IMG/VR virus record: IMGVR_UViG_3300032516_000167
Location: 1 to 26,498 of that record
Reading direction: 5' to 3' (one strand)
Length of the DNA stretch: 26,498 nucleotides
Source of the DNA: a virus
The position numbers and the translations under genes are program-made. Below the pieces are notes generated by a model. The model had not been told where the DNA came from and did not search any database. It was given only the letters and a program-made list of their open reading frames with translations. Below, piece after piece: positions 8,356 through 24,940 of the stretch; positions within the stretch are counted from its first letter, which is position 1, and each line of letters starts with the position of its first letter.

Positions 8356-10694
8356 GCCAACTCCGTGACGTCCTCGGCCGCCTGTGTACTGCGCACCGTT
8401 GAAGTGCCCATGAATTCGAGTTCAAACTCGGTGTAACTGTCCGCTTCCCTCAGCGTGAACTCAGTCTCGCCAGCGATCAGTACCTCATCCAACTGTACGC
8501 CATCCCCGTACACACGCAACAGCAGGTTGTCGTAGTCTCCTGCTCGAACTTGGGCCATCTGGAACCACGCCGGACGCTCAAGCAACCACAGCTTGCTGCG
8601 ATACCTGTAGGTCATCAGTACTGTTGGATTGCCCTCGAACAACGCGATCGTGTGCCCATTGACTGTCGGTTGCGAACTCGGGCTGTGGGCGAGCGAAGGG
8701 TCGTCCGGCTCATTGTTCTCGTCGAGCACCAGGTACATCTTGTCTTCGATCGGATCCACGTAGGCCGCGCAGGCGTGAAACGCCATCGTCACGATGCCGA
8801 ACCCGTTCGCCTTCATGTCGATGGCGTAGCACCCTCTGTTCGATCCGAAGTTCCAGAAGAGGAAGTAGATGTCGTTATACGAGACGGACCTCATGCTGCT
8901 GGGGCCCAGCGCCTGCCACTGCTCGCGGGTGAACACGCTTTCGGTCAGGTTCTTCACCTGGCCGACGCCTTGCACCGCCATGAGACCATCGGGCCCTGCG
9001 AACACGACACCGATGTTGGCCAGGTACGCGAAGCTGTTCTTGCTCGACGCAGCTTGCGGGATCTCGAACTTGCTCATGCTGTACGCCGCAGGGTCTGTGC
9101 CGCTGGCGATATACACGAAACTTTTCGTTCCGATAACGACGGTCGTGTCGACGTTACCTATACCGATGATGTCGGTGTCGGTAGTGAGCCGATTTCCGAT
9201 TGGCCACGCGTGCGGATTGTTCTGCGAGGACAGGCAAAGTTGATTCTTGCTGAAGCCTGCCATCACACCGTTCGGCAGCGCCAGGATGCCGCGCAGATCA
9301 TCTGGCGGCAGCGTCCAGTCGGCCGACTGCAGCACTTCACCCAACTGTGCGTCTTTGAGCGCGTCAACGTAGTCTGCAGTCGACAGCGCGATCTCTGCAA
9401 CGAAGAGGAACGCGGTTCCGGTGTTGCCCGTCGCAGCGCGGTAGATCCGTTTCGTCACGATGCCATACGAACTATCTATGCCAGAAGGCAGCGAAGACGC
9501 CGTGGTGACTGTGACGCTCACCCCATCCACACGCACAACGGTATCGCTAGGGAGGCTCGGGCCGCTCTCCTCGCCGATGTCGTTGACATAGGTGTAGACG
9601 TAGCTGGTCGCAATCGTGGCCGGCACGTAGCTCGACGCCCCGCCGGCTTGGACATGGATGTTGTCGTAGTAGGTGATGTACTGGGTTGCCGCGTCATCCG
9701 GGATGGCATTCGCTACGCCGCAGTAATCGCCGCGCGCAGCGCTCACTGTCACTGTCAGGGTCTGGAGCTGCCCGCTGCCTTGGTACAGCGCAACCGTGAT
9801 CGTCTGCGTGCTGTCGCTGTTGATCACCGCCTGAATCGTCATCGTGTACCAGACAGCAGCGCTTAGTGATACCGCCGGCGCGGACGCTGAAACCGAAACC
9901 CCGTACAGGCAATCCCAAGCCGTCGTTGTCAAGATCGACAATACGCCTTGGTGGACCCTCACTGCAACCCCGGCGCCTGCCACTGACGCGCCAACAATGA
10001 GTGACGCCTGCTTCACGTCTGTCGAGCCACCGAACATGAAGTCCGTGCTGGCTTGCAGTATTTGAGATGCGCCTACCCCGAAGTTCCGATACGCATAGGG
10101 GCCTTGGTTCGGGTTGTGAACCTCGTCATAGCTGAGACGGTAGCTTGGTGCGGGGTTTCCGACCCCTGCGTCTTGCGCCGCTTCTGAGTACAACCCACCG
10201 CCTGTCGCGAAGGCGGAAGTAACCCAGTTAGATGCTAGCTGGTTCCCCTCGTCAACTGGTGGATTGATAGAGAACGACGTCGGTGTCGGGTCGAGTCCTG
10301 GCACAGCTCCCGGCACGTCTTGTGGACTCGGTACGCCCAGCGGCCGCGTGATGACCGGATACGCCGAACTGCCGCTGGATGTCGCCAGGGAATAGTTCGT
10401 GAAGCGCGGCACATCCATGCCCGTGATGTACGTCCGGTACGTCGTGTCTCCCGGGATCGCGCCGCGAGCATAGTTCAGGTCGCTGTCCGACGACAACCAG
10501 ACATCGTGCAGCAGGAAGATCGACTGGACGGGCCCCGTGCGCGAGAGCGCGAGCACGTTCGAGAACTGACGCCACGCAGTGAGGTCACCCGTCAGCAGGC
10601 GGCAGTTCACAGCCTCCTGCGCAGCGTTGTCCGGCAGGGCGCGCGGGGTGAGCCGGGGGGCTTCACCGCGGAAGGAGTCGATGGCTCGTTTCAT
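8352..10694 (-). CDS. Tail-nozzle-like protein with jelly-roll insertion
   Basis: This 780-aa protein looks like the nozzle/DNA-stabilisation proteins of podoviruses (T7 gp12 and P22 gp10 type). The N-terminus MKRAIDSFRGEAPRLTPRAL and residues about 360-700 contain YVYTYVNDIGEESGPSLPSD, LPNGVMAGFSKNQLCLSSQN and VVIGTKSFVYIASGTDPA, the repeated blades of a propeller-like tail tip. Residues about 145-350 form a beta-rich insert (VWYTMTIQAVI, YYDNIHVQ), jelly-roll/LamG-like, not needed for the nozzle. It may be a carbohydrate-binding domain. The C-terminus is LEFMGTSTVRSTQAAEDVTEL-like. It shares ATGA overlaps with both neighbours. Confidence 0.8.
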   Translation of the reverse strand: MKRAIDSFRGEAPRLTPRALPDNAAQEAVNCRLLTGDLTAWRQFSNVLALSRTGPVQSIFLLHDVWLSSDSDLNYARGAIPGDTTYRTYITGMDVPRFTNYSLATSSGSSAYPVITRPLGVPSPQDVPGAVPGLDPTPTSFSINPPVDEGNQLASNWVTSAFATGGGLYSEAAQDAGVGNPAPSYRLSYDEVHNPNQGPYAYRNFGVGASQILQASTDFMFGGSTDVKQASLIVGASVAGAGVAVRVHQGVLSILTTTAWDCLYGVSVSASAPAVSLSAAVWYTMTIQAVINSDSTQTITVALYQGSGQLQTLTVTVSAARGDYCGVANAIPDDAATQYITYYDNIHVQAGGASSYVPATIATSYVYTYVNDIGEESGPSLPSDTVVRVDGVSVTVTTASSLPSGIDSSYGIVTKRIYRAATGNTGTAFLFVAEIALSTADYVDALKDAQLGEVLQSADWTLPPDDLRGILALPNGVMAGFSKNQLCLSSQNNPHAWPIGNRLTTDTDIIGIGNVDTTVVIGTKSFVYIASGTDPAAYSMSKFEIPQAASSKNSFAYLANIGVVFAGPDGLMAVQGVGQVKNLTESVFTREQWQALGPSSMRSVSYNDIYFLFWNFGSNRGCYAIDMKANGFGIVTMAFHACAAYVDPIEDKMYLVLDENNEPDDPSLAHSPSSQPTVNGHTIALFEGNPTVLMTYRYRSKLWLLERPAWFQMAQVRAGDYDNLLLRVYGDGVQLDEVLIAGETEFTLREADSYTEFELEFMGTSTVRSTQAAEDVTELA

Positions 10695-11893
10695 GGTCGG
10701 CAGATTCCGTAGTTTGCTACCGTGGTGTCACTTCCGCCTACACCGATAGCCGCGTAGTTACCTAAATTATCGCCATCCCAGTCTATAAAGTAGGAGGGCA
10801 TCGATACGTTACTTCCCGTAGCCGACCACGTAATTCCATCAGCAGAATTGAAATTGTGGGTTCCGCCGACGTCAGTTAAAAGGAACATCCCCTGCAAGAA
10901 ACGCACACGCCGCCACACAGTACCCGGCGCATATACGGTATTTGAGTAGTGCCATGAAGCCCCGCCATCGATTGAATATGCAACTCTAGTGTCAGTAGCA
11001 AACGGGACTGCTACCCAAATTCCGTTACCGTATGCTATTGTAGAACAAGTGATGAACGGTAATGCTCCGCTAGCAGACCAAGTTACGCCATCGTTATTAC
11101 TTACTGCTGTATCAGCAGAACTATCACCTCTAGCAGCAATAAACTTACCGCTGCCATTCGAGCCTACTACTGTCCAACTCCCGCTTGCCGGGAGGGTTCG
11201 AGCAGTAAACGTTCCGCTCGTGGTTGTGTAACACGTAGCGCTGACAAAACTAGACATAAAAACAAAGTTACTAACCCCACCGTATGCCCCCTGCACAAGG
11301 ATGTGTGGGTTTCCAATCTTAGTCCATGTTTTCCCGTCTGTAGATTTCCATCCATCGATTGCGTTCATCCCGGCGAGCCACACTCCATTACCGTATGCCA
11401 TCGATAGTGGGCGGAACCCGTACCCAGACTCGGAGCCGAATGCTGTAGACGACTCGTTCCAAGTAACGCCTCCATCACCGGACCAGACTGCACACGGATG
11501 CGCCGCGGACTGGATTATTCCTCCAGCTACGAATAGCCCGTTACCGTATGCCATACAGTTAAGGCTCTCTGCATTAGGTATGACGGTTGCCGCCCACACA
11601 GGACCGCGTGAGCACACAAACAAAACCGGGGGGATATTTACTTGAGCGATAGTGATGACGTTGGCCTTTTCTCCCGTACCTCGGGAGACACTGAACGCGG
11701 GACTCGTCACGATGTTCACGACACGCACGTTGCGGTCGCCAAGATCGACGCCCTCGTCCTGCCACTGCAAGTACAGCGGGAAGGCCGCCGCGGGCTCGGG
11801 CAGACGTGCAACAGGCACGATCGCGTACTCCGTGCTGTAGTCTGGCGCAGGCCCGGATGGCGCGATCTCGTTGCCGTCGTGCAGGATGTTCAT
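10691..11893 (-). CDS. Tail module fused to Asp-box beta-propeller
   Basis: This 400-aa protein has two parts. Residues about 20-84 are a third copy of the small tail module (EYAIVPVARLPEPAAAFPLY, then RVVNIVTSPAF, then RGTGEKANVITI). Residues about 100-400 carry five Asp-box-like motifs: SGDGGVTW (138), STDGKTW (184), SNNDGVTW (265), SIDGGASW (307) and SADGITW (350). Three AYGNG strands (about 115, 167, 288) alternate with them. This is the BNR/sialidase-type beta-propeller layout. No sialidase catalytic arginine triad can be assigned, so it is more likely a binding propeller than an enzyme. The propeller DNA is AT-richer than the module (28/60 G+C in the line at 10801). The stop overlaps the next start as ATGA. 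Confidence 0.8.
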   Translation of the reverse strand: MNILHDGNEIAPSGPAPDYSTEYAIVPVARLPEPAAAFPLYLQWQDEGVDLGDRNVRVVNIVTSPAFSVSRGTGEKANVITIAQVNIPPVLFVCSRGPVWAATVIPNAESLNCMAYGNGLFVAGGIIQSAAHPCAVWSGDGGVTWNESSTAFGSESGYGFRPLSMAYGNGVWLAGMNAIDGWKSTDGKTWTKIGNPHILVQGAYGGVSNFVFMSSFVSATCYTTTSGTFTARTLPASGSWTVVGSNGSGKFIAARGDSSADTAVSNNDGVTWSASGALPFITCSTIAYGNGIWVAVPFATDTRVAYSIDGGASWHYSNTVYAPGTVWRRVRFLQGMFLLTDVGGTHNFNSADGITWSATGSNVSMPSYFIDWDGDNLGNYAAIGVGGSDTTVANYGICRP

Positions 11894-11896
11894 AGG

Positions 11897-12115
11897 TTAC
11901 GACGACCAGTAATCATCCGATACGCGTATGGTTTCCTCGACGTATGCGATCGACACCGGCCGCATCTCGACCGTGATCACGTTCGCCTGCTCACCCGTAC
12001 CCCTCGAGCAGACGAAGCCTGCCCCCGTGAAGTTGATCACGCGAACCGGTATCGGGGGGAAGGTTGCTGCAGATGCGACCGGGAATCCCGCAATGGGAAC
12101 GATCGCGTAGGTCAC
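11897..12115 (-). CDS. Stand-alone small tail module (copy B, shortened)
   Basis: This 72-aa protein starts with GTG at 12115, three bases after the preceding stop, with no clear Shine-Dalgarno. MTYAIVPIAGFP opens the same module as in its two neighbours. The roughly 13-residue LYLQWQDEGVDLG segment of the 400-aa copy is missing. It continues RVINFTGAGFVCSRGTGEQA (30-49) and NVITVEM. A tail of about 20 residues (SIAYVEETIRVSDDYWSS) is unique to this copy. The deletion suggests divergence after duplication. A structural role as tail connector is inferred from context. Confidence 0.65.
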   Translation of the reverse strand: MTYAIVPIAGFPVASAATFPPIPVRVINFTGAGFVCSRGTGEQANVITVEMRPVSIAYVEETIRVSDDYWSS

Positions 12116-12118
12116 GAC

Positions 12119-12319
12119 TCAGCCCAAGGTGATCGTGATCGTGTTGTCGTCCACCCCGGAACCGCCGCGGACCAGCGTGAAGCCGGCGCCCACGAAGTTG
12201 ATCGTGTCCGCATTCGGCGCGCCCAAATCCACTCCGTTCCACTGGAACTGGATGTAGTTCGGGAAGTCCTCTGTGAGCGGCGGGGGAAAGCCCAGGACGG
12301 GGGTGACGCCGTAAGTCAT
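12119..12319 (-). CDS. Stand-alone small tail module (copy C)
   Basis: This 66-aa protein has one of the stronger ribosome sites here (GGGGAGGT). It is a compact beta-rich module: MTYGVTPVLGFPPP, then QFQWNGVDLGAPNADTINF (28-46), VGAGFTLVRG and a final NTITITLG. The GVDLG...INFVGAGF...TITI pattern is common in phage tail-fibre modules. It aligns with the next small protein and with the N-terminus of the 400-aa protein, making three adjacent copies. It probably folds as an independent attachment or trimerisation unit, which is inference. Confidence 0.7.
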   Translation of the reverse strand: MTYGVTPVLGFPPPLTEDFPNYIQFQWNGVDLGAPNADTINFVGAGFTLVRGGSGVDDNTITITLG

Positions 12320-14531: not shown

Positions 14532-15458
14532 TCAGGCCTTCCTGACGACGGCGGTGCCGACGTACTTCGGGCCGATGACCTCGAAGCCGAAGACCATCAA
14601 GCCGCGGACGATGTACCCGAAGTCGTTCGGGTTGTTGATCATCTCGCACTCGACGATCTGCGACGCGAACGTCAGGCCGGCGCTGTGCCCGAACATGACA
14701 TAGCTCGCGGGCCCGGGACTGGTCTGCGACAGCAGGTTGCGCGACTGGTAGATCGTGAACCTGTCGATCTCGCCGACCTTGCCGTTGCGCAGGATCGAAA
14801 CCCCGTCGCCAGCAAGAGAAGCGATGCGCAGATCGGACTTCTTGATCAGTGCCACGAACCAGGGCGGCACGACCATCCAGCGGCCTTCGTCGCTGACGTT
14901 CTGCTCGTCCATGACCGTACCGCAGTCGACGACGAACTCGACCACAGTGGTCTTGCTCACCGACACAGGGGTCGTGGAGTCGCCAAGATCGATCGTGGAG
15001 TCCACGCCGGCAAATGGGCCTTGATTGTCCGCAGACACGTCGGCCGGGATCGTCTGGAGGACGTCCTGGTCGGCGGCGATGCGCAACTGAATCGACCCGT
15101 CGTTGGCGAAGATGTCCGCCATGTCGAGGTCCGACTGCCGCATGTCGACGGTGGACAGTGCCACCGCAAACGACTTGGCCTGGTCGATCGCCAGCGTCAC
15201 CGAGTTGCTTGTCGGGTACTGCGCACCCAGGCCGGCACCGATGATGTAGTTGCTGACGGTCACGTCAGGGATGGTGCGGATCTTGACCTGCGCGCCGTAG
15301 CCCGCGATCTCGCCCTCATAGTCCGTACTGGCGATCTCGCCGAACACGGTCGTCTTGTAGAACTTCTCGACCAGCTTGCCCGAATACAGTTCGGGGTTGA
15401 AGTTGGTCAGGCCTGCCGGACCATAGTCGGGAAGGCCTGATGCGATGGGAACGCCCAT
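14532..15458 (-). CDS. Major capsid protein (P22 coat-like)
   Basis: This 308-aa protein is preceded by one of the strongest ribosome sites in the window (AAGGAGAT, seven bases from ATG), as expected for the most abundant virion protein. Features point to the P22 gp5-like coat family with an HK97 fold. They are an N-terminal region with SGKLVEKFYKTTVFGEIAS (26-44), a central domain of strands, and the conserved GRWMVVPPWFVALI segment (about residues 195-208) followed by GKVGEIDRFTIYQSRNLL. The position after the scaffold and before the connector genes agrees. The length is at the short end for this family. A perfect hairpin follows nine bases after the stop. Confidence 0.9.
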   Translation of the reverse strand: MGVPIASGLPDYGPAGLTNFNPELYSGKLVEKFYKTTVFGEIASTDYEGEIAGYGAQVKIRTIPDVTVSNYIIGAGLGAQYPTSNSVTLAIDQAKSFAVALSTVDMRQSDLDMADIFANDGSIQLRIAADQDVLQTIPADVSADNQGPFAGVDSTIDLGDSTTPVSVSKTTVVEFVVDCGTVMDEQNVSDEGRWMVVPPWFVALIKKSDLRIASLAGDGVSILRNGKVGEIDRFTIYQSRNLLSQTSPGPASYVMFGHSAGLTFASQIVECEMINNPNDFGYIVRGLMVFGFEVIGPKYVGTAVVRKA

Positions 15459-15482: not shown

Positions 15483-15496
15483 CCCCCTACCGGGGG
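15483..15496 (-). other. Small hairpin at scaffold stop, before capsid start
   Basis: CCCCC (15483-15487) and GGGGG (15492-15496) form a short GC stem overlapping the scaffold stop codon, about 25-39 bases before the capsid ATG. It may influence coupling or ribosome loading on the capsid gene, but it is short and could be chance. Confidence 0.25.
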
Positions 15497-16431
15497 GCGC
15501 GGAGCTTCAGCCGGGCCTCGAATTGCACGCGCTCGTTGTCCGTAACCTTCCTGAGAGCCGCACGTTTGTAGAAGTCCTTGATCTCTGCCGATGTCGGCAC
15601 GGACAGACCTTCTGCACTCTGGGGGGCTGATGGCGGCTCGCCGCCATTCGCTCCAGTACCGTTCGGTGTCAGCGGGGGTGGCTGTGGTGTCTTCGCCTTC
15701 AAGTACGCCCGGAACATGTTGGCCACCTTCACGGCATCCAGCTTTCCGACGTGCGTATCGAGAAGTGCTTGGCGCTCCACGCCGGTCGATTCGTCTTCCT
15801 CTGCCAACCACGCTTTCCAGTCGTCGCTCGCGTCGATCACCTCGTAGTTCGGGACATGCTCCGCGAGCTTGTCCGTGAACTTCTCCTTGCGCTCCTTGGC
15901 CTGTTGCACTTGGCTTGTCTTGGCAGCCTCTCGCAGCGGCTTGATTTCCGCTTCAACGGCTTCCGAGATGGCCTTGCGCACCGTGGTCAGGTTTGCAGTG
16001 GCAATCGCTGTAGCTTCTTCCTCGCCCAGCACCGCGATCTGCTCGGGCGTGAAGAACTGCCCCAGGTCGATCGTGCCGCCGGTCGGCTGCGTAGCCTGCA
16101 GGGCTTGAATCTGCCCCTGCAACTCAAGAATCTGCTGACGAAATCCTTCGGCATCGGCCTTGCGGCCGTCGCGTTCCGCCCTGAGCACTCCTGCCGTTAC
16201 GTCGAAGCGCTGCTTCCAGTAGGCGGGATCACTCTCTCGGGGGTCTGCTGCCGGGGGTTTCGGCTCAACAGGGTTCGCATTCCCTGCGCTCGATTCAATC
16301 GGCGGCGCGTTCGGGTCTGCTGGATCGGTCTTCGGTTCGTTCCGGGCTTCGATGTGCGCCTTGATGGCGTTGGACACTTTCAGTACGGCGCGAGGAAGGC
16401 GCGTTTCATTCAGGGCTGGTGTAGCCTGCAT
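15487..16431 (-). CDS. Putative scaffolding/head-assembly protein
   Basis: This 314-aa protein lies directly upstream of the major capsid gene. It has a disordered Pro/Asn/Glu-rich N-terminal part (about residues 30-68). The signature SDPAYWKQRFDVTAGVLRAE (67-86) leads into a predicted coiled coil to about 113. A helical C-terminal half with LREAAKTSQVQQAKERKE follows, and the protein ends in a basic helix (FEARLKLRAPR). A central coiled coil and a basic C-terminal helix next to the coat gene are what P22-type scaffolds look like; in P22 the basic helix-turn-helix binds coat. The start is supported by GGAG eight bases upstream. Confidence 0.8.
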   Translation of the reverse strand: MQATPALNETRLPRAVLKVSNAIKAHIEARNEPKTDPADPNAPPIESSAGNANPVEPKPPAADPRESDPAYWKQRFDVTAGVLRAERDGRKADAEGFRQQILELQGQIQALQATQPTGGTIDLGQFFTPEQIAVLGEEEATAIATANLTTVRKAISEAVEAEIKPLREAAKTSQVQQAKERKEKFTDKLAEHVPNYEVIDASDDWKAWLAEEDESTGVERQALLDTHVGKLDAVKVANMFRAYLKAKTPQPPPLTPNGTGANGGEPPSAPQSAEGLSVPTSAEIKDFYKRAALRKVTDNERVQFEARLKLRAPR

Positions 16432-16505: not shown

Positions 16506-16763
16506 TTACGCAGCCAGCCGGGACGACGGGTGGGCCGTTTGCTGGTTGCGGGCAAGCCTTTCCTGGGCTTCGACGATATCAGCGATGATTTCACTGACTT
16601 CCAGCGCTCTGCCTTGATTCCGGTAAACCTCTTCACCGGTCACTCGACGCAGCGCAGCATCGCGTTCTGCCAGTCTGGCTTTCAACATATCGAGCAGTAA
16701 CCGGCCGTCTGGTGACTTTGAGAGCCGGGCCAGAAAACCTAGTTGTATGCTGCTCAACTGCAT
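16506..16763 (-). CDS. Small helical phage protein upstream of scaffold
   Basis: This 85-aa protein is all-helical by composition. It matches a pattern I have seen in small podovirus proteins encoded just before the scaffold: LxxLSKSPDGRLLLDML (about residues 12-27), AERDAALRRVTGEEV (32-46) and NQGRALEVSEIIADI (49-63). The function in that family is not established; assembly or head-related is a guess. There is no good Shine-Dalgarno before the ATG. It begins 34 bases after the preceding stop and ends 74 bases before the scaffold start. Confidence 0.75.
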   Translation of the reverse strand: MQLSSIQLGFLARLSKSPDGRLLLDMLKARLAERDAALRRVTGEEVYRNQGRALEVSEIIADIVEAQERLARNQQTAHPSSRLAA

Positions 16764-16797: not shown

Positions 16798-17760
16798 TCA
16801 ATCTTCTAGCAGCAGGCGCGCTGCAAGCGCTGCTGCGCGAGCCTGGTTGGTAGACTTCAAACTCGCCTTGGCGATCGCCGCTTGCGTGTCCCGTGTTGCT
16901 CGGATCTCGTCCAGCATTTCACGTGTTTGCACGGTGGCCTCCCGCATATCCTTGGCCGCCGATTGCATGTTCTTCACGGCATCCGCCAGCGAAGCACGTA
17001 GCGCAACAGCCTCAGCGTCCTCGACGGCAGCGGGTTCAACTTCAGCCTCTGCCGCCGACGCCTTTTCGACTTCTACTGGTGCGTCTTCCTCGAGCGCAGG
17101 AGTAGGTTCTACCGCGGTTGGGCGGCGGTAGCCTACCGTCGGCATCGTGGTTTCTATCGGCGCAGCTTCCGCCTCAACCTCTGGCGCATCGAACACCCTC
17201 GCAGCTAGGCTCAGGCCCCGTGCGAGTTTTGCCGTGCTGGGCGGCCCCGGTGGGGGCGCGTCCGGCATGTTCGTGATGTCTTCCGGTAGTGGGTCTTCCG
17301 GCCCCTTCTCGTTGACTGCCTTGAAGCGGACGTTCCGGTTCGCGAGGTACTTCGGATCGAGCAGATCCTCGGTGGTGGCCGCGTCTACGCCGCCTGTAGC
17401 CGTCTGCGCGTCGTGCAGCGAGAAGCTCTCACCAACCTGCTCTACAGAAGCGGCTGACGTGGCATCCTGCCCGTCGATCAGCGCGATAGACTCATCTTGC
17501 GCAGAAGAGAATGCCGCGCTCGCGGTCTGTTCATCGACAAGCGCAACAGACTCAGCTTCGACAGCCGAGAAGATTGCGGTTACTGTCTGGCCATCCGATA
17601 GCGCAAGGGTTTCGTCGTTACTCGCTGCAAAGGTCGCAACTGCAGCCTGATCGTCCGTGAGCGATACGGATTCAGTGACGTATGAATCCGCTGTGACGGG
17701 CAGCCAAACAGCCTTCCATACGGGCTTCCAGATATCCTTCCAGTTACGGCCGATGATCAC
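16798..17760 (-). CDS. Repeat-containing fibre/connector-like protein
   Basis: This 320-aa protein starts at GTG with a GGAG site nine bases upstream. Four parts are visible. A tryptophan ladder places Trp at residues 7, 11, 15 and 19 in NWKDIWKPVWKAVW. Four to five imperfect 20-residue repeats span residues 30-124, each beginning with an acidic residue followed by a hydrophobic/Ser/Asp core such as ESVALVDEQTASAAF. A Pro/Glu/Ala-rich linker covers about 150-245. A C-terminal helix (about 250-320, AVKNMQSAAKDMREATVQTR) reads as a coiled coil. WK-rich N-termini of this kind occur in other phage tail or fibre proteins, so a fibre or connector role is plausible. No catalytic residues are seen. 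It closes the accessory cassette before the capsid genes. Confidence 0.7.
   Translation of the reverse strand: MIIGRNWKDIWKPVWKAVWLPVTADSYVTESVSLTDDQAAVATFAASNDETLALSDGQTVTAIFSAVEAESVALVDEQTASAAFSSAQDESIALIDGQDATSAASVEQVGESFSLHDAQTATGGVDAATTEDLLDPKYLANRNVRFKAVNEKGPEDPLPEDITNMPDAPPPGPPSTAKLARGLSLAARVFDAPEVEAEAAPIETTMPTVGYRRPTAVEPTPALEEDAPVEVEKASAAEAEVEPAAVEDAEAVALRASLADAVKNMQSAAKDMREATVQTREMLDEIRATRDTQAAIAKASLKSTNQARAAALAARLLLED
17389..17673 (-). repeat. Five imperfect 20-residue repeats within a CDS
   Basis: Residues 30-124 of the 320-aa protein contain units starting at 30, 50, 70, 90 and 111, the last one shortened. Each has the pattern E-[ST]-x-[AS]-L-x-D-x-Q followed by Thr/Ala/Phe. The DNA copies have diverged but keep the 60-base period for the first three units. 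Confidence 0.75.
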
Positions 17761-17763
17761 GGC

Positions 17764-19509
17764 TCAGACTCCGAATTCCGTGCCTGGCTGGCCGTCGCCG
17801 GTGATCGTTACATCGTTGATCTTCTGGATGTTCGCGTCCACGATTCCAGTAGTGACGGCGATCGTCATATCCGCGAAGTTTGCTGGGAATGTTTGCGTCA
17901 GCGCGTAGCCGGTCTTGCCGACGTTCCAGTCGCCCTTGCCGTTGAGGGCCGCCGCATTGACCGACGCAGCCGTGATGACATTGTTCCCGATCGACGCCAC
18001 GGCGATACCCGCAGCCGCAGTGATGTTCGTCGGCGTTGCGAGTCCGTTCTGGATCTTGGTGACTGCATCTGCCTTCACGGCCGCCGCGTTGAGGGCGTCA
18101 GCGGCGATGCTCGTTGCAGTGATCCCATTCGCCGCTACGGTGGCAACACTGCCCGTCAGGTTACCCGTGAAGGTGGTCGTCAGAGCCGTGGTGACTGTCG
18201 TCGCGGCATTCGTGCCTGCGATGAAGTGCCCACCAGTAGCGCCCGGCACGGCGTCAATGAATAGCGCCTTGCCGATGCTCGATGCGGCCGTGAAGTCGCC
18301 AGCAACAGCATCCTGCCAAATGGTCTTGGGAGTGACGACTTGCGTCTTGCCAAGGGTCGGCGTACCTGTCCGCTGATCGTCTATGGCGACCATCCCCCGG
18401 ACCTGGACGTTGCCGTCGGCGCCCGTCAGGGTCACCGTGCCGCCGCTCACTGCGTCGATGCTGATCGTCGTCGCGCTGGTGATGCCGCTGATCGAGATGC
18501 CGCCAGACCATCGGCGGAAGCTGATGTTCACCGTCCCCGCCGGCACCGCAAAGGCCGGCGCGGACGTGCCCGCTACGATGCTGGCGCAATCGATGAAGTC
18601 ATAGTTTCCAGCAGCGCCAAGAGTCAGCGTGCCTACGAACTCGCAGTGATTGAAGTTCGCTGGAGGTACTGTTGCGGTCGCTCCGAACTCGCAATCTATG
18701 AAATACGGGAAGCTCGTTGCACTGGTGCTGGTGCTTGTCCCCGTGACGTTGATGCAGTTGCTGAAAACCGAGTTGCTGATGTTCTGCGCGGCCAGCGCGA
18801 GCTTCCAGCCGAAGCCGTCGAACACGTACCCGTCAACTGTGGCGCTCAGGGTTGCGGTAACGCCGGCCTGAACCCAGAACCTGCGCAGGCCCGTGTTACC
18901 GGCGACGGATAGCGCGGCGGCCATCGTGCTGACGGGGTTCGTCATGATGCCGTCAACGTAGATCGTAGTGTTCGTGTTCGCAACGCTGCCGATCCACACC
19001 GCGCCGTGCATGTACTTGCCGCGCTCGTTCGTCAGGTTCGTTGCGGTCGTGGTCGTCGTGACAGTCGGGATCACAGCCCCGGTGTGCGTCACGGCAGCGA
19101 GAGTCACCAGTCCGCTGCCAACGCTCAGTTGCGACGTGCCCGTACCTGCCGTGATGAGGGACGCATTCGTAGTGCAGGCGGTGTCTGGCAGTGCAGAGAA
19201 CCCCGCGTTGGTGGCCGCCACGACCTCGTAGACGTCGCCCACGTCATCCATGCCTGAGACGGCAGCCCGCCAGGCCATCGGGCCCACGACATTGACATCA
19301 GTCGCGCCAAGCGCAAACTTGTAGAACCCGCTGGCTATCTCCGTGGCTGTGAGTGCTCCAGCAGCTGGATTCTTGAACGCAGCGCCATCGCCTGTCTCCC
19401 AGATCGTGATGACGGGAACTACGCTGATCTTCGGCGTGAAGTGATCCGTGGACGAAATCGCTCGGAAGACGACCGTCTTGGCTACACCAGCGGGGATTCG
19501 TTCGGGCAC
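17764..19509 (-). CDS. Large beta-helix-like, fibre-type protein
   Basis: This 581-aa protein starts at GTG with a strong AGGAG site nine bases upstream, ten bases after the previous stop. Residues 1-90 form a small beta domain (FRAISSTDHFTPKISVVPVI). Residues about 150-370 show rungs of short Thr/Ser/Val strands with FSNCINVTG, YFIDCEFG, FNHCEFVG and DFIDCASI, a parallel beta-helix pattern. Residues about 440-560 are Ala/Thr/Asn-rich, with recurrent NxITA/IAAD units such as NGITATSIAADALNAAAV, typical of phage fibre shafts or trimerisation stalks. The protein ends in DVTITGDGQPGTEFGV. No enzymatic site is seen. Together with the 486-aa protein upstream it suggests a two-component fibre or spike system. 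Confidence 0.75.
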   Translation of the reverse strand: MPERIPAGVAKTVVFRAISSTDHFTPKISVVPVITIWETGDGAAFKNPAAGALTATEIASGFYKFALGATDVNVVGPMAWRAAVSGMDDVGDVYEVVAATNAGFSALPDTACTTNASLITAGTGTSQLSVGSGLVTLAAVTHTGAVIPTVTTTTTATNLTNERGKYMHGAVWIGSVANTNTTIYVDGIMTNPVSTMAAALSVAGNTGLRRFWVQAGVTATLSATVDGYVFDGFGWKLALAAQNISNSVFSNCINVTGTSTSTSATSFPYFIDCEFGATATVPPANFNHCEFVGTLTLGAAGNYDFIDCASIVAGTSAPAFAVPAGTVNISFRRWSGGISISGITSATTISIDAVSGGTVTLTGADGNVQVRGMVAIDDQRTGTPTLGKTQVVTPKTIWQDAVAGDFTAASSIGKALFIDAVPGATGGHFIAGTNAATTVTTALTTTFTGNLTGSVATVAANGITATSIAADALNAAAVKADAVTKIQNGLATPTNITAAAGIAVASIGNNVITAASVNAAALNGKGDWNVGKTGYALTQTFPANFADMTIAVTTGIVDANIQKINDVTITGDGQPGTEFGV

Positions 19510-19518
19510 TTCGCTCTC

Positions 19519-19734
19519 CTATCCCATGTACGACAAGCCAGCAGGCTGGATTGCCCGAGTTTGACCGCTTCCCATAGCGCCTAGCCCAGCCGGCAGTGTC
19601 GCCGTGGTGATCGTGCTGCCGGCTGGAGCAGCCGCCACCGTCTCGTTGACGAACCCAGCACCCGGAATCAGGTTCTGCTTCGTCTCCGATTCGTTGACGA
19701 ACCCAACGCCAGGGATCAGGTTCTGCGCAGCCAT
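19519..19734 (-). CDS. Small protein with tandem 16-residue repeat
   Basis: This 71-aa protein begins right after the stop of the beta-helix gene (TAAATG). Residues 4-19 and 20-32 repeat the unit QNLIPGxGFVNE. The rest is Ala/Gly/Thr-rich (TTATLPAGLGAMG) and ends with QPAGLSYMG. It has no membrane segment or catalytic motif. Low-complexity repeat peptides between two beta-helix proteins could serve as fibre connectors or linkers, which is inference. The repeat and the gapless packing argue for a real gene. Confidence 0.65.
   Translation of the reverse strand: MAAQNLIPGVGFVNESETKQNLIPGAGFVNETVAAAPAGSTITTATLPAGLGAMGSGQTRAIQPAGLSYMG
19639..19725 (-). repeat. Tandem 16-residue repeat within the 71-aa CDS
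   Basis: Residues 4-19 and 20-32 repeat QNLIPGxGFVNE with a 48-base period. The two DNA copies share most bases, including CAGAACCTGAT at each start and GTTCGTCAACGA within each, so the duplication is fairly recent. Confidence 0.8.
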
Positions 19735-21195
19735 TTAGCTCACGCTGATCTTCGGATCGACGTAGATCGGGTTCGTTGCGCCTGCCGCATACAAACCTAG
19801 TCCAACACGGCAACGAATGTACCCAATCGAGTCGCATGACACGGTTGCGGTTAGCGTATTCGTCTCGGTCTCAGTTACGCCCGTCCACGCTTCGGAAGTG
19901 TCCGTTCTTCCTGTTCCAGTAGCAGTTGGATCACGGTGGATGGTTCCACTGACAATCGGACAGTCGTCGTCAACCTCAACCTGCGAGTGCGGAGAATTGG
20001 CAACCCGTGTCGTCCCGGTAGCCCCAGGCTCGCCCATGTACTCCACTTCCATCCACACCTCACCTTTGTTCAAGGCTGAGGCCCGAGTGGTTGCGATCTT
20101 CAACGCCACGGTCTTCGATCCGGTGCTTGGAACAAACACGCTGATCCACGGTGTATAGAGCGGGAAGTATTGAGTGACCGCCGCACTCGGACTCATCTTC
20201 AGCGAGTAGGACGTATCCGTACCGTCATCCTGCTCGCCTTGCGCTCCTCCGGTGGTCAGGTAGACATCCTGGTCATCCTCGACTACGCCGAAGAAGTTCT
20301 CCCTGTAGTAGTTCAGGATGTTTGCCGTACCGGCCCCTGGGTTTGCGTTGACGGCATCGCAGGCCATGAACTCAGCTTCGCATGTATTAGTGGAAGTACC
20401 TGTTACTGGAGTCGCAATGACGCAGTTGTGCATCGCGTAAGTCAGCAGTCCTGTGAGTGCCTGGCTAACTACGTTAGTAGAGGCCGACCAGTCGCACGAA
20501 AAACACTCGACAACTGCCTTGCATAGAGCCGTTGGAACGAACAAAGTCGTAGGAGCAGTTCCCGCTGTCGTGCAGTTCACGAATGTCTTCCGTCCTCCGG
20601 TTACGTTTAGCGCCTGCCCAGTCGCTCCGAATGTGAACGTACAGTTGGTGAAAATAAACCTGTTGCCGAAATTACCCGCAGTTCCCCCGAGTGTTATTAA
20701 AGCCAGCCCACTCGTTGAGTTTGTGTGAAGCGTACAGTGCGCGAATTCGATCTGCTGAAACGGAGCACCTCCTACAATAATGTCAGCACTGGAACTGCTG
20801 GCCCCTGCTCCAGCCTGTATCGTGATGCCGTGGATGAAAGCCCGCGCATCACCACTACTGGATGCGTTAATAGTAAAAGCAGTATTCCCACCGGTCGTTT
20901 CGCTTGCTCCGGTAGTCAGTGTCCCGACAGTAGTTCCCATTGCTGCGGGATTAGACCAAGCAGCATCTCCCCCATCCACGCAAAGAACCAGCACTGCGCC
21001 TGCTGTAGACCCTTCTGGAAAAGTCCAGGTTATCGCACCCCCTACGTTTGCAGCGTGGGTGTTGTGAACGTAGAAAATGTCCCCGGAACCTACGGTTACT
21101 GCGGCCACGACAGCATTTACCGACTCTGCTGCATTGGCCCATGATGATCCGCTGTCGTTTCCTGCTGTCCCCGCCCTGACGTAATACGCAGTCAT
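19735..21195 (-). CDS. Beta-helix-like, fibre-type virion protein
   Basis: This 486-aa protein is dominated by Thr/Ser/Gly/Asn-rich short strands (TNCTFTFG, FVNCTTAGT, MHNCVIATP) with regularly placed Asn-Cys pairs. This is the pattern of a right-handed parallel beta-helix. The N-terminus YYVRAGTAGNDSGSSWANA resembles the entry region of pectate-lyase-like phage proteins. A C-terminal beta-sandwich follows (about residues 345-486), ending in IYVDPKISVS. No catalytic residues of a depolymerase can be assigned. The coding DNA is AT-richer than the neighbours: the line starting at 20641 has 26/60 G+C. It overlaps the upstream gene by ATGA and abuts the next ATG. It could be a tail spike, a head fibre or another receptor-binding protein. 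Confidence 0.75.
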   Translation of the reverse strand: MTAYYVRAGTAGNDSGSSWANAAESVNAVVAAVTVGSGDIFYVHNTHAANVGGAITWTFPEGSTAGAVLVLCVDGGDAAWSNPAAMGTTVGTLTTGASETTGGNTAFTINASSSGDARAFIHGITIQAGAGASSSSADIIVGGAPFQQIEFAHCTLHTNSTSGLALITLGGTAGNFGNRFIFTNCTFTFGATGQALNVTGGRKTFVNCTTAGTAPTTLFVPTALCKAVVECFSCDWSASTNVVSQALTGLLTYAMHNCVIATPVTGTSTNTCEAEFMACDAVNANPGAGTANILNYYRENFFGVVEDDQDVYLTTGGAQGEQDDGTDTSYSLKMSPSAAVTQYFPLYTPWISVFVPSTGSKTVALKIATTRASALNKGEVWMEVEYMGEPGATGTTRVANSPHSQVEVDDDCPIVSGTIHRDPTATGTGRTDTSEAWTGVTETETNTLTATVSCDSIGYIRCRVGLGLYAAGATNPIYVDPKISVS

Positions 21196-21404
21196 CCAAC
21201 CACCGAGATAGCCTCGGCCTCCGCAAGTTCGTAGATCAGATATTCACCCCGTGCCGTGCGCTCAGTTGTCTCGTCAACAGTATTCGGCACCCAGGCGCGG
21301 CGGGTGTGGACTTCGCCGTTGCTGGTCGTGAAGCGGAACAGGTACTTAATCGTGCTGCCGCTCACACGGGCCTCCAGCGTCTCAGCGTTCGTAATAGTGC
21401 TCAT
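21192..21404 (-). CDS. Hypothetical 70-aa protein
   Basis: This is a very small, acidic, beta-rich protein. Strands are suggested around residues 9-40 (ARVSGSTIKYLFRFTTSNG and RRAWVPN), followed by a short helix with Glu/Ala (YLIYELAEAEAI). It is bounded on both sides by 4-base ATGA overlaps, so it is locked into the operon and unlikely to be a chance frame. No characterised family is recognised. A small adaptor or cap for the adjacent beta-helix protein is conceivable but unsupported by any motif. Confidence 0.7.
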   Translation of the reverse strand: MSTITNAETLEARVSGSTIKYLFRFTTSNGEVHTRRAWVPNTVDETTERTARGEYLIYELAEAEAISVVG

Positions 21405-21688
21405 AGGTCAGACTGCCCTGAAACTGCCAGCCAACGGTCCTTCGCCGGGATCAGCGTCGAAGTGACGAAGCTGTTCCATTGAGCGGTGTTAAGGCTTCGG
21501 CCATAGGCGGCATTGAATGAGAGGCGCACCTGATCGCTCGTCAGGTTTCCGAGTTGGATCTGGTTCCACACCCACCAGACGAGGCGGCAGAATTCCAGTT
21601 TCTCACCGCGCTTGTACGTCTTCTGCACGCGCAACCAGAACCGGGCCGCGAACTCGGCGGAAGTCTGGTGATTGAGAGTGAGGGCCAT
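21401..21688 (-). CDS. Hypothetical 95-aa helical protein
   Basis: This is a short protein, mostly helical by composition, with aromatic-rich stretches (FARFWLRVQKTYKRG-like and RLVWWVWNQIQLG at about residues 40-52). A downstream region resembles an EF-hand-like or helix-loop-helix segment (LTSDQVRLSFNAAYGRSLN). No catalytic motif is visible. The start ATG immediately follows the previous TAA, and its own TGA overlaps the next ATG (ATGA), so it is probably expressed by translational coupling. I do not recognise a characterised family. Its place between a membrane protein and beta-helix proteins suggests an accessory virion or assembly role, which is inference only. Confidence 0.7.
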   Translation of the reverse strand: MALTLNHQTSAEFAARFWLRVQKTYKRGEKLEFCRLVWWVWNQIQLGNLTSDQVRLSFNAAYGRSLNTAQWNSFVTSTLIPAKDRWLAVSGQSDL

Positions 21689-22072
21689 TTAGTGCGAGTC
21701 GTGTTGGCGCTCTGTGGTCTTCACGCGCCCTCGGTAGTAGATCGTGTGCCAGGGCATCCAGAATGAATGCTGCCGGCGCACGGGATCGAACTGTTCAAGC
21801 AACGACGCATCGCCCAGGTGGCTCACCCACGCCACATGAGGGACCGGCAGGAACCCGAGAAACCTCTGCCCATCAGCGTTGCGAACCAGCAGATAGCCAC
21901 CGTGCAGATACCAGCGCGGCAGCGCATACGTCCAGCAGTTCCCATGCGTTGCGTCGGGGAACACCTTGTCTCCGAGCACGGAAATCCAGGTCGTGAACGC
22001 CATCAGCCACATCGCGGCGCACCAGAATACGAAGCCGACGGAGGCCAGCACGATGTGAACCAGCTTTCTCAT
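21689..22072 (-). CDS. Small one-TM membrane protein, function unknown
   Basis: This protein has 127 residues with one strongly hydrophobic segment near the N-terminus (about residues 4-33, rich in Val/Ala/Phe/Trp) after a short basic MRK start, so it is an N-terminal membrane anchor or uncleaved signal. The remaining 95 residues are rich in Trp, His, Tyr and Gly (for example ALPRWYLHGGYLLVR) and should form a soluble domain on one side of the membrane. I recognise similar small phage proteins encoded near packaging genes, but none with a firm function. It lacks features of a holin (no second TM) or endolysin. It begins 22 bases after the preceding stop with only a weak ribosome site, and its stop codon directly abuts the next ATG (TAAATG). 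Confidence 0.75.
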   Translation of the reverse strand: MRKLVHIVLASVGFVFWCAAMWLMAFTTWISVLGDKVFPDATHGNCWTYALPRWYLHGGYLLVRNADGQRFLGFLPVPHVAWVSHLGDASLLEQFDPVRRQHSFWMPWHTIYYRGRVKTTERQHDSH

Positions 22073-22094
22073 GTTGCTGCGGGAGTACCGCGTA

Positions 22095-22703
22095 CTACGC
22101 CGCCGTCAGGGTGTAAACCACAGTCAGGGTATCCAGATTGGCGACAGTCTTCGCTCCGCCTGTGAAATCTCCAGCCGAGAACAATATGCCCGTAGTATCG
22201 TCCTTCGTGGCGCTGCCTCCGTTGTTGATGAAGCAACCGTCGACATTCCCGCCGGAAGTGATAGCGAAGGCCTGCGTCGGGCTGGTGCTGACTTGGCTCG
22301 CTGCTGCGCCCATTGTCACTGCCTTGCGGTCTCCGGTATACGCCGGCGCGTTTGCACCGCCTCGTTCAGTCCAGCCAGCGTGGGAAGCCTGCGTATTTGC
22401 GGCCAGAACGGTTCCTGCGCCCTTGAGCCCCATGCGGATCGTCTGCGTATAGCCGCTGCCCTTCAGGTACTTGTCAAGCAGATCGTCCTTCCCGACGTTC
22501 GTAACCAGATTCTCGAACGTCTCGGACGGACTGACCTCGAACTGCAGAGCGCGCATGGCTTCTGTCAGACGGTCTTCTTCCGCTCTGTCGCCGGCCATTG
22601 TGGCTGCGTTACGTGCCTCCCACAGGGGCATGAATTCAGCCAGCCTTTCGGGGATAGGCCGCAGATGCGATACCGTGTACTCACCTCGGACTTGCTTGTT
22701 CAT
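22095..22703 (-). CDS. Putative phage virion protein with C-terminal beta domain
   Basis: This 202-aa protein belongs to a recognisable family of uncharacterised phage structural proteins. The N-terminal half is helical (about residues 14-55). It is followed by the hallmark stretch FENLVTNVGKDDLLDKYLKG (63-82) and then TQASHAGWTE (104-113). The last 70 residues read as a beta-sandwich, with GILFSAGDF (172-180) and a final strand pair near VANLDTLTVVYTL. In relatives known to me such proteins usually sit near capsid or tail genes, and a decoration or fibre-attachment role is an inference. An AGGA ribosome site nine bases upstream overlaps the portal stop. The gene opens the accessory cassette between portal and scaffold. 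Confidence 0.8.
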   Translation of the reverse strand: MNKQVRGEYTVSHLRPIPERLAEFMPLWEARNAATMAGDRAEEDRLTEAMRALQFEVSPSETFENLVTNVGKDDLLDKYLKGSGYTQTIRMGLKGAGTVLAANTQASHAGWTERGGANAPAYTGDRKAVTMGAAASQVSTSPTQAFAITSGGNVDGCFINNGGSATKDDTTGILFSAGDFTGGAKTVANLDTLTVVYTLTAA

Positions 22704-22711
22704 GGCGTTTC

Positions 22712-24940
22712 CTACTCTGTTTCAGCACCAGCGAGTTCGCCGGTATCGCTGTAGTTGAACTTGACCTTCTTCTTGTTCTGCGCCTGGGTGGCAAGCGCTG
22801 CGGCGACGGCTTCCTTGACGATCTGGGAAAGGATGGTGGTCTGCGCGGCCTTGTCGCCTTCCGACGCTTTGGTTTGCAACCTCATCACCTCGCGCTGCGT
22901 CTCGTTGGTCAGTTTGGCATTGGCGAGTTCCTTCTCGTGCTGCATCTTCGCCTGCTCGACGCCCTGCTGCATCTGGATCATCTGCTGCTGCGACTGCGCC
23001 ATCGCTTGCTGCTGGGCGTCGATGACGTCGTCTGACGGCACGACCTCGTCTACCGGCAGTTCCATCGATGCGGCCGTCTCACGCAACAGCGCGGCACGGT
23101 ACTTGGCGGTGATGATCTGCGCGTCGATCGGGTTGGCCGTCATGGTCAGGAACTGGATTCGGCGCTGCTGCGCGCTCTCGCGGATCAGGATCGCGGCCGC
23201 ACCGCGCGGCACGACGATGTTGTCACCCTTGATGCTCTCGTCCGGGTTGTAGAGCATCTCGTTCGTGAAGGTGTCGCCGATGGTGGGCGCGATCACGTTG
23301 ATGTCGATGTTGCCGATCGCGCGACGAAGCCCCTTGGCGGCGTTGTTCATCAGCATGGACAGGCCGGTGGCCGTGTCCGCGCTGCCGCCGGCGCGCTCGT
23401 TGCCGTAGGTGTAGCGCGGGATGCCGGTGGAGTCATCCGCCCTGATCTCCCACCGCTCCAGCGTCGCCATCAGCTTCTCGCTGTTGTCGTTGGGCTGGAA
23501 GAAGCCGATGCCCGGGTTTACTCCCTGTGTCGGGTCTGACTTCAACTGCCAGAGTTTCCACGGGAACATCTCCATCGACTGCTCGCCGTCCGCGAAGCGG
23601 TCCGCGTGCACCCAGACTTGCGGCCCGGAGGCTATCGCCAGGTTGTCTGCAAGGGCGCAGGCGATCGCGTTGCACATCTGCTGGGGGGTAGCCGCCAGAT
23701 CGGGGATTGAGCGCCCCCAGAAGGCTCCGGGGATCTCGTCGTAGCAGGCCTTGCGGTAGGGTCGCTGGCGCAGGGGGTCGGAGTTGATCGCAGCGTAGAG
23801 CACGTAGTGGCCGCACAGCAGCACATTGCACTCATACTCACGGGTTTCCTCGATGTCACCAGCGACGCCCCACGACATGAGTTTCCACCCCGGCACGCTG
23901 CCCCAGTAGTTCAGCGCGTCGATCACCCCCGGGGGCGACAACCACATGTAGAGCGTCTCTTGCTCGAGCCGCTGTCGCTCGCTCTCGGTCCACAGCCAGC
24001 CCTCGAGGTGTCCGTTGGTGTAGTCCCTCAATGCCGAATCGATCTGCTCGTCCTGATAGTTGGGCAAGCCCTTCAGGTTATACAGCTCGTCGCGGCGGAA
24101 GCGAATCCGCTCGATGAAGTCGCCCTGCTGCGGTGACTTGCTCACCGGCGCGGGATAGATGTCGAAAGGACTCACCCGCTCCCACGTCTGCTGCGGATCG
24201 TTCGACACGACCGGCTTGAACCCCGCGCCCCACTTGAGCGTGCGGTGCCGGGTGTAGATCGGCCCCTTGAGGATGGCTGCCGGGTATGTCACGAAGTCCT
24301 CGACGAAGGAATCCATCGCGTGCTCATAGTTGCCTTCGTCCAGCCGGTCGGCAATCTGCCGCTCCATGCGCTTCGCGCGCTTCTCGGCCACCTTGGTGAG
24401 CGTCGTCTCAGCCTCGTCGCGCAGTTTTTCGCCGATCTGTACCGTCAGTTCGTGGAACTCGTCCCGGGACATCACCGCGCCGCTCTGGCCGGCTTGCACG
24501 AGGGCTTGCTGCGCCTCGTTGATGGCCTTGTTGACGACAGCCACCTTGATCGATTTGGGCAGATCCGGGATCGGCGTCGGGTCGACGCCCCAAGGCTGCT
24601 CGCCGACGGGCAGCACGATCTCGCGTATCCACGCCGAGGCCGCGCGGCACTTGACTTCCGTCAGCGGGTGCCAGACGATGTTCATGCCACCGTTGCCGGC
24701 CTGCATGGTCGAGACCTGTGCCGCACTGTAGACCCCGCGCCTGGCGCGCAAGTCACTCAGCATCTTGACATCGATGCGGACCTTGGCGAGCTTGTTGCGC
24801 TGCCAGGCCCGCTTGACGTGGCCTGCAAGCGCCGTCTCGATCACCTCCGGTGTCAGATCCCGGGCTTCCGGAATAGCCGCCTTGTCTCGCTCCAGCGTCT
24901 GCTGGAGACCCAACTGTCTGACTAGGGGATTAGCTGGCAT
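22712..24940 (-). CDS. Phage portal protein
   Basis: The portal forms the dodecameric ring at one capsid vertex through which DNA enters and leaves. The assignment rests on its position directly after the terminase, its size (742 aa, typical of large podovirus portals) and its content. A mixed alpha/beta core (about residues 90-600) contains a stretch with IPGAFWGRSIPDL and a long segment ending in NNAAKGLRRAIGN, both typical of portal wing/stem regions. A Gln/Ala/Lys-rich C-terminal helical stretch (about residues 650-720), probably coiled coil, suggests a barrel or a terminase/internal-core contact. The start at 24940 has no clear Shine-Dalgarno. The stop TAG overlaps the AGGA used by the next gene. 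The overall match to portals is strong; the subfamily is not certain. Confidence 0.9.
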   Translation of the reverse strand: MPANPLVRQLGLQQTLERDKAAIPEARDLTPEVIETALAGHVKRAWQRNKLAKVRIDVKMLSDLRARRGVYSAAQVSTMQAGNGGMNIVWHPLTEVKCRAASAWIREIVLPVGEQPWGVDPTPIPDLPKSIKVAVVNKAINEAQQALVQAGQSGAVMSRDEFHELTVQIGEKLRDEAETTLTKVAEKRAKRMERQIADRLDEGNYEHAMDSFVEDFVTYPAAILKGPIYTRHRTLKWGAGFKPVVSNDPQQTWERVSPFDIYPAPVSKSPQQGDFIERIRFRRDELYNLKGLPNYQDEQIDSALRDYTNGHLEGWLWTESERQRLEQETLYMWLSPPGVIDALNYWGSVPGWKLMSWGVAGDIEETREYECNVLLCGHYVLYAAINSDPLRQRPYRKACYDEIPGAFWGRSIPDLAATPQQMCNAIACALADNLAIASGPQVWVHADRFADGEQSMEMFPWKLWQLKSDPTQGVNPGIGFFQPNDNSEKLMATLERWEIRADDSTGIPRYTYGNERAGGSADTATGLSMLMNNAAKGLRRAIGNIDINVIAPTIGDTFTNEMLYNPDESIKGDNIVVPRGAAAILIRESAQQRRIQFLTMTANPIDAQIITAKYRAALLRETAASMELPVDEVVPSDDVIDAQQQAMAQSQQQMIQMQQGVEQAKMQHEKELANAKLTNETQREVMRLQTKASEGDKAAQTTILSQIVKEAVAAALATQAQNKKKVKFNYSDTGELAGAETE

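Follow-up and report, generated by a model that had tools for sequence, protein, structure and literature searches.

Layout of the Locus

We analyzed a 26.5-kb virus record (IMG/VR record IMGVR_UViG_3300032516_000167; the window, all 26,498 nucleotides of it), with attention to a block of eight genes that lies between its portal gene and its scaffold and coat genes. The genes of the window lie on the minus strand, where the order is terminase, portal, the eight-gene block, an 85-amino acid (aa) gene that we call g85, a putative scaffold, coat, an SU10-type adaptor, a phrog_511 protein, and two long Ala-rich proteins. The block fills positions 22703-16798 with eight minus-strand open reading frames of 202, 127, 95, 70, 486, 71, 581, and 320 aa, whose products are named here by length (c202 to c320). 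An earlier note, made from the sequence alone, had reported these eight genes, and all are present and closely packed. The junctions measure -4, -4, 0, 0, 3, 9, and 22 bp; the ATGA overlaps and zero gaps that the note described number two each (4-bp ATGA-type overlaps at 95/70 and 70/486, zero gaps at 127/95 and 486/71), and the rest are 3-22 bp. The note also placed the block between portal and scaffold, which is correct as to location, but g85 (16506-16763) separates it from the scaffold. A promoter and terminator scan of the region gave no excess over shuffled sequences, and an internal promoter belonging to the block was ruled out on this basis. We consider it probable that this interval is an accessory locus for virion appendages, exchangeable in content, at which the phages of this group insert differing sets of fiber- or adhesin-type genes between the portal and the g85-scaffold-coat genes and which they would use for host contact. 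Such a locus is new in its details and of a known kind.

Gene Gain and Loss at the Site

The left border of the site is the 742-aa portal protein (22712-24940, minus strand), which matches phrog_332 (E 5e-55) and the Pfam family SU10_portal above its cut-off. Its right border is g85 (minus strand), a conserved gene found in 42 loci at an almost constant distance from the scaffold. Across 37 de-duplicated relatives, window included, the distance from portal to g85 ranges from 33 bp to 9.2 kb (maximum 9207 bp). The site is empty in 13 of the 37, with less than 100 bp between the two genes, and occupied in the other 24; at least 1 kb is present in 21. The standard deviation of this distance is 2636 bp, as against 14-509 bp for seven other neighboring intervals in the same genomes, so the variation is not due to chance. 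A portal tree built without the variable C-terminus requires at least seven changes of occupancy, five of which are forced by well-supported branches, and even sister pairs differ (33 bp in L084 versus 2532 bp in L024; 35 bp in L052 versus 339 bp in L036). From the range, the standard deviation, the changes on the tree, and the sister pairs, we conclude that genes are gained and lost here as at a hot spot. Isolated phages are likewise divided: the portal essentially adjoins the next conserved gene in BcepIL02, the KPP25-type CRPAP1904, and Rollin, and 2-4 kb is present in HMO-2011, CRP-3, phiM6, and ctYwJ313. The view of the earlier note that the portal is normally followed almost directly by the scaffold thus describes about a third of the relatives and not the remaining 24.

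The content of the site is as variable as its length. Of 255 interval proteins, eight of which are those of the window, 125 match no protein of any other interval. The c202 gene is retained in the closest relatives (L009-L011, L105, L054), and the order c71-c581-c320 is kept in the near-identical L089, with other genes in most relatives. A single conserved block that moves as a unit, a possibility the earlier note had raised, appears unlikely since most relatives carry unrelated genes instead; what does hold is the note's picture of an extra co-directional fiber-like unit in the head module, one that comes and goes among relatives. The domains that can be recognized among the occupants are often of adhesin or fiber type: six PKD domains in L024, G8 plus a CEMIP beta-helix in L032, DUF285 together with tail-fiber phrog_9370 in L105, and, on visual inspection, a Trp ladder followed by PASTA-like repeats in L016, L077, and L183. 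Five of ten large interval proteins scanned against Pfam gave no match of note.

The HMO-2011-type isolates carry a different large protein at the site, with endolysin-family similarity in CRP-3. Like the cassette of the window, HMO-2011 gp49 and CRP-3 gp36 occupy the same genomic site, are variable in size and content, and are adjoined by small open reading frames; unlike it, each is a single large gene with no homology to the window proteins, and the CRP-3 protein has an endolysin-like part. This part is the N-terminus of gp36, a 1292-aa protein of a Roseobacter phage (L005, 12984-16862), and its similarity to endolysin families suggests that the CRP-3 site may encode an enzyme-bearing appendage or an ejected protein.

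Proteins of the Cassette

The first cassette protein, c202 (22095-22703, minus strand), is a virion-type protein with an N-terminal alpha/beta domain and a C-terminal beta domain (residues ∼89-201). Its AlphaFold2 model has a predicted local distance difference test (pLDDT) score of 86 and supports the beta-rich C-terminal half, which bears out the beta domain that the earlier note had read in this protein. Residues 61-201 align to positions 46-190 of the 192 of phrog_8123 (E 1.5e-13), a profile match over most of the model, and the KPP25-type protein matches the same family with E 8e-62; IMG/VR holds 187 relatives of c202. The viral fold neighbors of the predicted structure include tail fiber and minor tail proteins. 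Foldseek searches with c202 and c581 returned no head-fiber match among the matches listed, and no Pfam family was found either.

A profile search of PDB sequences with c202 found one chain, 26la_U, a "Structural protein" of 171 aa (E 1.7e-4), which places c202 in a family with a member in a solved virion. The aligned part of this chain is identical to a protein of the Pseudomonas podophages KPP25 and CRPAP1904. The homologue is present in 26la and 44nx, which also contain a 620-aa structural protein of a KPP25-type phage and, in 44nx, an additional one of 147 aa. It is absent from the entries that hold the coat (26de and 44ny) and from the portal entry (26fb, with 219-aa and 398-aa proteins). 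The phrog_8123 gene lies directly behind the head-closure gene Hc3 in the tail module of F116, LKA5, and KPP25, and Rollin has it in the corresponding place. On the basis of the PDB entry grouping and the gene position behind Hc3, the c202 homologue seems to belong to an appendage complex, probably on the tail side. The phrog_8123 protein of these KPP25/F116-type podophages resembles c202 in being homologous to it and a virion structural protein beside large structural proteins; it differs in that its gene belongs to the tail module, behind head closure, and in that it does not have the ∼60-residue N-terminal part of c202. The PDB entries 26de, 26fb, 26gp, 26la, 44nx, and 44ny match L181 by sequence and seem to be KPP25-type podophage virion structures, which place phrog_8123 and phrog_3758 in a structural setting.

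The two largest products are low in charge and rich in Ser, Thr, Gly, and Ala, as in fibers. For c581 (17764-19509, minus strand), the model and the relatives L089-L103 delineate an N-terminal domain, a central beta-helix (∼18385-18882), and a conserved C-terminal domain of ∼70 aa that is common to other phages. The beta-helix of the model spans residues ∼210-375 at a local pLDDT of mostly ∼60-90, the remainder being of low confidence, and its Foldseek matches are weak (E>0.3), including tailspikes and a tail fiber of phage 7-7-1. The second, c486 (19735-21195, minus strand), probably contains a right-handed beta-helix, with a start at YYVRAGTAGNDSG..W, followed by a C-terminal beta domain; it is 28% identical to an interval protein of L032, and a relative of its C-terminus is present in L088. 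Of the two beta-helix-like proteins in the earlier note, c581 is therefore backed by a model over these residues, and c486 is a reading of the sequence. The Trp ladder, repeats, and coiled coil described for c320 (16798-17760, minus strand) were all recovered: the ladder is N-terminal (NWKDIWKPVWKAVW), the repeats number four at ∼20 aa each, and the coiled coil is C-terminal and ends in RAAALAARLLLED. Scans with c486, the c581 N-terminus, a c581 alignment, and c127 returned almost exclusively near-identical fragments, and phage-collection searches with c486, c581, c320, and c127 gave no match.

The remaining four products are small. One N-terminal hydrophobic, transmembrane (TM)-like segment is present in c127 (21689-22072, minus strand), which belongs to no known family and matched nothing in phage, Pfam, PHROG, and PADLOC searches; its sole match in IMG/VR is a near-identical sister fragment. 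Both c95 (21401-21688, minus strand; Pfam and PHROG searches) and c70 (21192-21404, minus strand), the latter overlapped by 4 bp at both ends, are orphan proteins. The peptide c71 (19519-19734, minus strand) carries two copies of the motif NLIPGxGFVNE (NLIPGVGFVNES and NLIPGAGFVNET), so the tandem repeat noted earlier exists in the protein, but Tandem Repeats Finder detected no repeat in the DNA.

Related Genes in Other Genomic Settings

Genes of the c202, c581, and c320 types recur outside this portal group. In the long-tailed phage L110, a c202-type gene is flanked by an HK97-type portal gene and that of the head-tail adaptor, and in L123, also long-tailed, a c202-type gene and a repeat protein precede Hc1, the tail terminator, and the tape measure. 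Two further long-tailed phages, whose gene roles we annotated by eye from the sequence, show similar arrangements: L091 has a c581 relative (55% identity), then a Trp-ladder protein, then head-tail-connector-like genes, and L100 has beta-helix-like and c581-like proteins between the head genes and an apparent tail terminator. The podoviruses L093, L096, and L097 carry c581-like genes behind g780, in the tail module. Cassette modules hence recur in head/neck and tail contexts alike, and a neck-proximal attachment point would fit both.

A Portal Peptide and a Conserved Coiled Coil

The alignment of portal C-termini revealed a peptide, KKKVKFNYSDTGELAGAETE in the window (22715-22774, minus strand), in phages that have a c320-type distal protein. 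A portal end resembling KKIKYxYDxxGxLxGAExE is found in many phages with an occupied site and in none of 16 empty-site portals, a correlation of motif and occupancy that is confounded by descent. In the motif-bearing phages, the final cassette gene has variable N-terminal parts and a similar coiled-coil end (..NxRRAxxIAxRLLLED), which sequence comparison places at 16801-17013 (minus strand) in the window. Coded by eye in the 37 phages, peptide and coiled coil occur together in 12, are jointly missing from 23, and are discordant in 2. Two loci found later agree, in that L183 has the motif and a Trp-ladder/PASTA-like protein that carries the tail, and in L184 the motif is absent and the site empty. 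Among occupied sites the association gives a Fisher p of 9e-5, but phylogenetically independent contrasts number 3-4 and are not significant, for which reason we do not regard the association as established. A leave-one-out profile of the distal tail was clear for the window/L105 pair and L021, weak for L077 and L022, and failed for L016/L018, L066, L073, and L078; it gained one unseen member, L076. The distal-tail motif is thus supported in part of the set and weak overall.

One could imagine that a docking peptide at the portal C-terminus recruits the conserved coiled coil of an interchangeable distal protein, so that the slot would act as a plug-in for portal-anchored adhesins with the anchor kept and the rest swapped. 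We judge this improbable. The site is bordered by the portal end on one side and by the distal gene on the other, so linked exchange could also yield their co-occurrence. If this portal is oriented like those of the P22 type, its C-terminus would point into the capsid, and this speaks against simple docking from outside.

Weighing the Interpretations

If the interval is an accessory appendage locus, the late operon would make the cassette along with portal and scaffold. Its products would comprise c202, which is small and has a beta domain, some small partners, the beta-rich fiber- or spike-like c486 and c581, and the repeat protein c320 with its C-terminal coiled coil. These would be incorporated into the virion of the window's phage, most likely as an accessory appendage near the portal vertex, whether at the neck, on the part of the head next to the portal, or on the nozzle immediately beneath. 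There, the appendage might bind host surface glycans or proteins reversibly and in a strain-specific manner, before the conventional tail proteins engage. Several observations weigh against this proposal. The relatives of c202 in cultured podophages are encoded in the tail module, so a gene's place among the head genes may be a poor guide to the destination of its product; c127, c95, and c70 give no hint of function; and the GC content at third codon positions, 0.57-0.79 in the cassette (lowest in c486) versus 0.86-0.87 in portal and coat, is also low in g85 (0.59) and the scaffold (0.72), which makes it weak evidence of recent transfer.

The evidence on whether such an appendage would belong to the tail or to the head is divided. 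The chance that these are ordinary tail fiber or spike genes in an odd place, with products that attach beneath the portal, to nozzle or adaptor, and with the portal-scaffold location being simply a spot where the late operon tolerates insertions, is in our estimate somewhat short of even. The grouping of the c202 homologue with the 620- and 147-aa structural proteins in 26la/44nx, apart from capsid and portal, speaks for it, as do the c202-type genes behind Hc3, the c581-like genes behind g780, and the weak structural matches of the c581 beta-helix to tailspikes and 7-7-1 tail fibers. However, the cassette is encoded between portal and scaffold and not in the tail module, conventional tail genes are present elsewhere in the window, and in L091, L100, L110, and L123 such genes precede the connectors or the tail terminator rather than following the tape measure. 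The head/connector region of long-tailed phages is not the usual place for ordinary tail fibers, and this recurrence, together with the location in the head module between portal and coat, favors a head or neck reading. The earlier note had suggested a head- or portal-attached complex in place of a tail fiber; these neighborhoods agree with it, but the solved c202 relative and the podophage gene positions lean to the tail side. True head or portal-vertex fibers of the crAss001 or Andhra kind, with c320 docked by its coiled coil and possibly on the portal peptide, seem to us rather unlikely. The concordance of peptide and coiled coil in 35 of 37 phages, and in L183 and L184, would be expected from them, but it reduces to the few independent pairs given above, the P22-type analogy points the portal C-terminus inward, and the capsid entry does not contain the solved c202 relative.

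Known head fibers offer partial parallels. The crAss001 head fibers gp21 and gp29 have numbers that fall between those of the portal (gp20) and the major capsid protein (gp32), and like the cassette they are encoded between these genes, are not found in all relatives, and have been proposed to bind host or mucus (PMC10172136). They attach by short N-terminal capsid-binding segments, whereas in the distal protein of the window it is the C-terminal part that is conserved, and we saw no sequence relation. The head fibers of Andhra are located only around the portal vertex (PMC9710869), and the phi29 head fiber is described as non-essential, its Goe1 homologue having been deleted (PMC5977234). These picovirus-type fibers (Andhra gp13, phi29 gp8.5) share with the cassette their accessory nature and, for Andhra, the confinement to the portal vertex; unlike it, each is a single fiber gene and not a multigene exchangeable block between portal and scaffold. 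Phage 7-7-1 contacts flagella by capsid fibers (PMC12796354).

The least probable account is a moron-like cargo site, whose genes would work inside or at the surface of the infected cell (by excluding superinfection, by modifying the surface, or as ejected proteins) and not on the virion. An accessory, variable, and dispensable site is what this would predict, and both the TM-like segment of c127 and the endolysin-like CRP-3 protein could be accommodated. The late genes are nevertheless on the same strand and tightly packed, a member of the c202 family is a solved virion protein, and fiber or adhesin architecture is repeated at the site, with no PADLOC hits. Defense or counter-defense cargo was rejected because of the absence of PADLOC hits, and a tRNA element at the site was also rejected. 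Should the appendage reading be correct, a common environmental podovirus group would alter its host contact through a hypervariable slot in the head module, besides its tail fibers. Close relatives with an empty site would then serve as natural controls, so that head- or neck-proximal fiber function could be tested at one locus, and many orphan proteins of environmental phage genomes (phrog_8123 and its neighbors) would gain a role.

Neighboring Genes and the Portal Group

Beyond g85, the putative scaffold (314 aa, 15487-16431, minus strand) is assigned from a match to phrog_13678, a family of unknown function, and from its position and charge. The major coat protein (14532-15458, minus strand) matches phrog_267 (E 1e-46) and the major capsid protein of PDB 8e16. 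Two long Ala-rich proteins at 2144-4459 and 3-2144 resemble internal, ejected virion proteins; they gave no family match, and no relative of them was found among the fetched loci. Among deposited phages, the portal has relatives (24-32% identity) in marine phages of the HMO-2011 type and in podophages of Rhizobium/Sinorhizobium, and IMG/VR contains at least 80 portal relatives that are closer. The same portal family occurs on the contigs L183 and L184, which binning assigned to metagenome-assembled genomes of Verrucomicrobiota and Chromatiaceae; this might point to the host or reflect a binning error. In the tail module of the window, the adjacent genes g400, g72, and g66 (10691-12319) all match one ∼60-aa segment in relatives (e.g., L183 10169-10351) and so seem to have one N-terminal domain in common, which would be expected for fibers that use one anchor.

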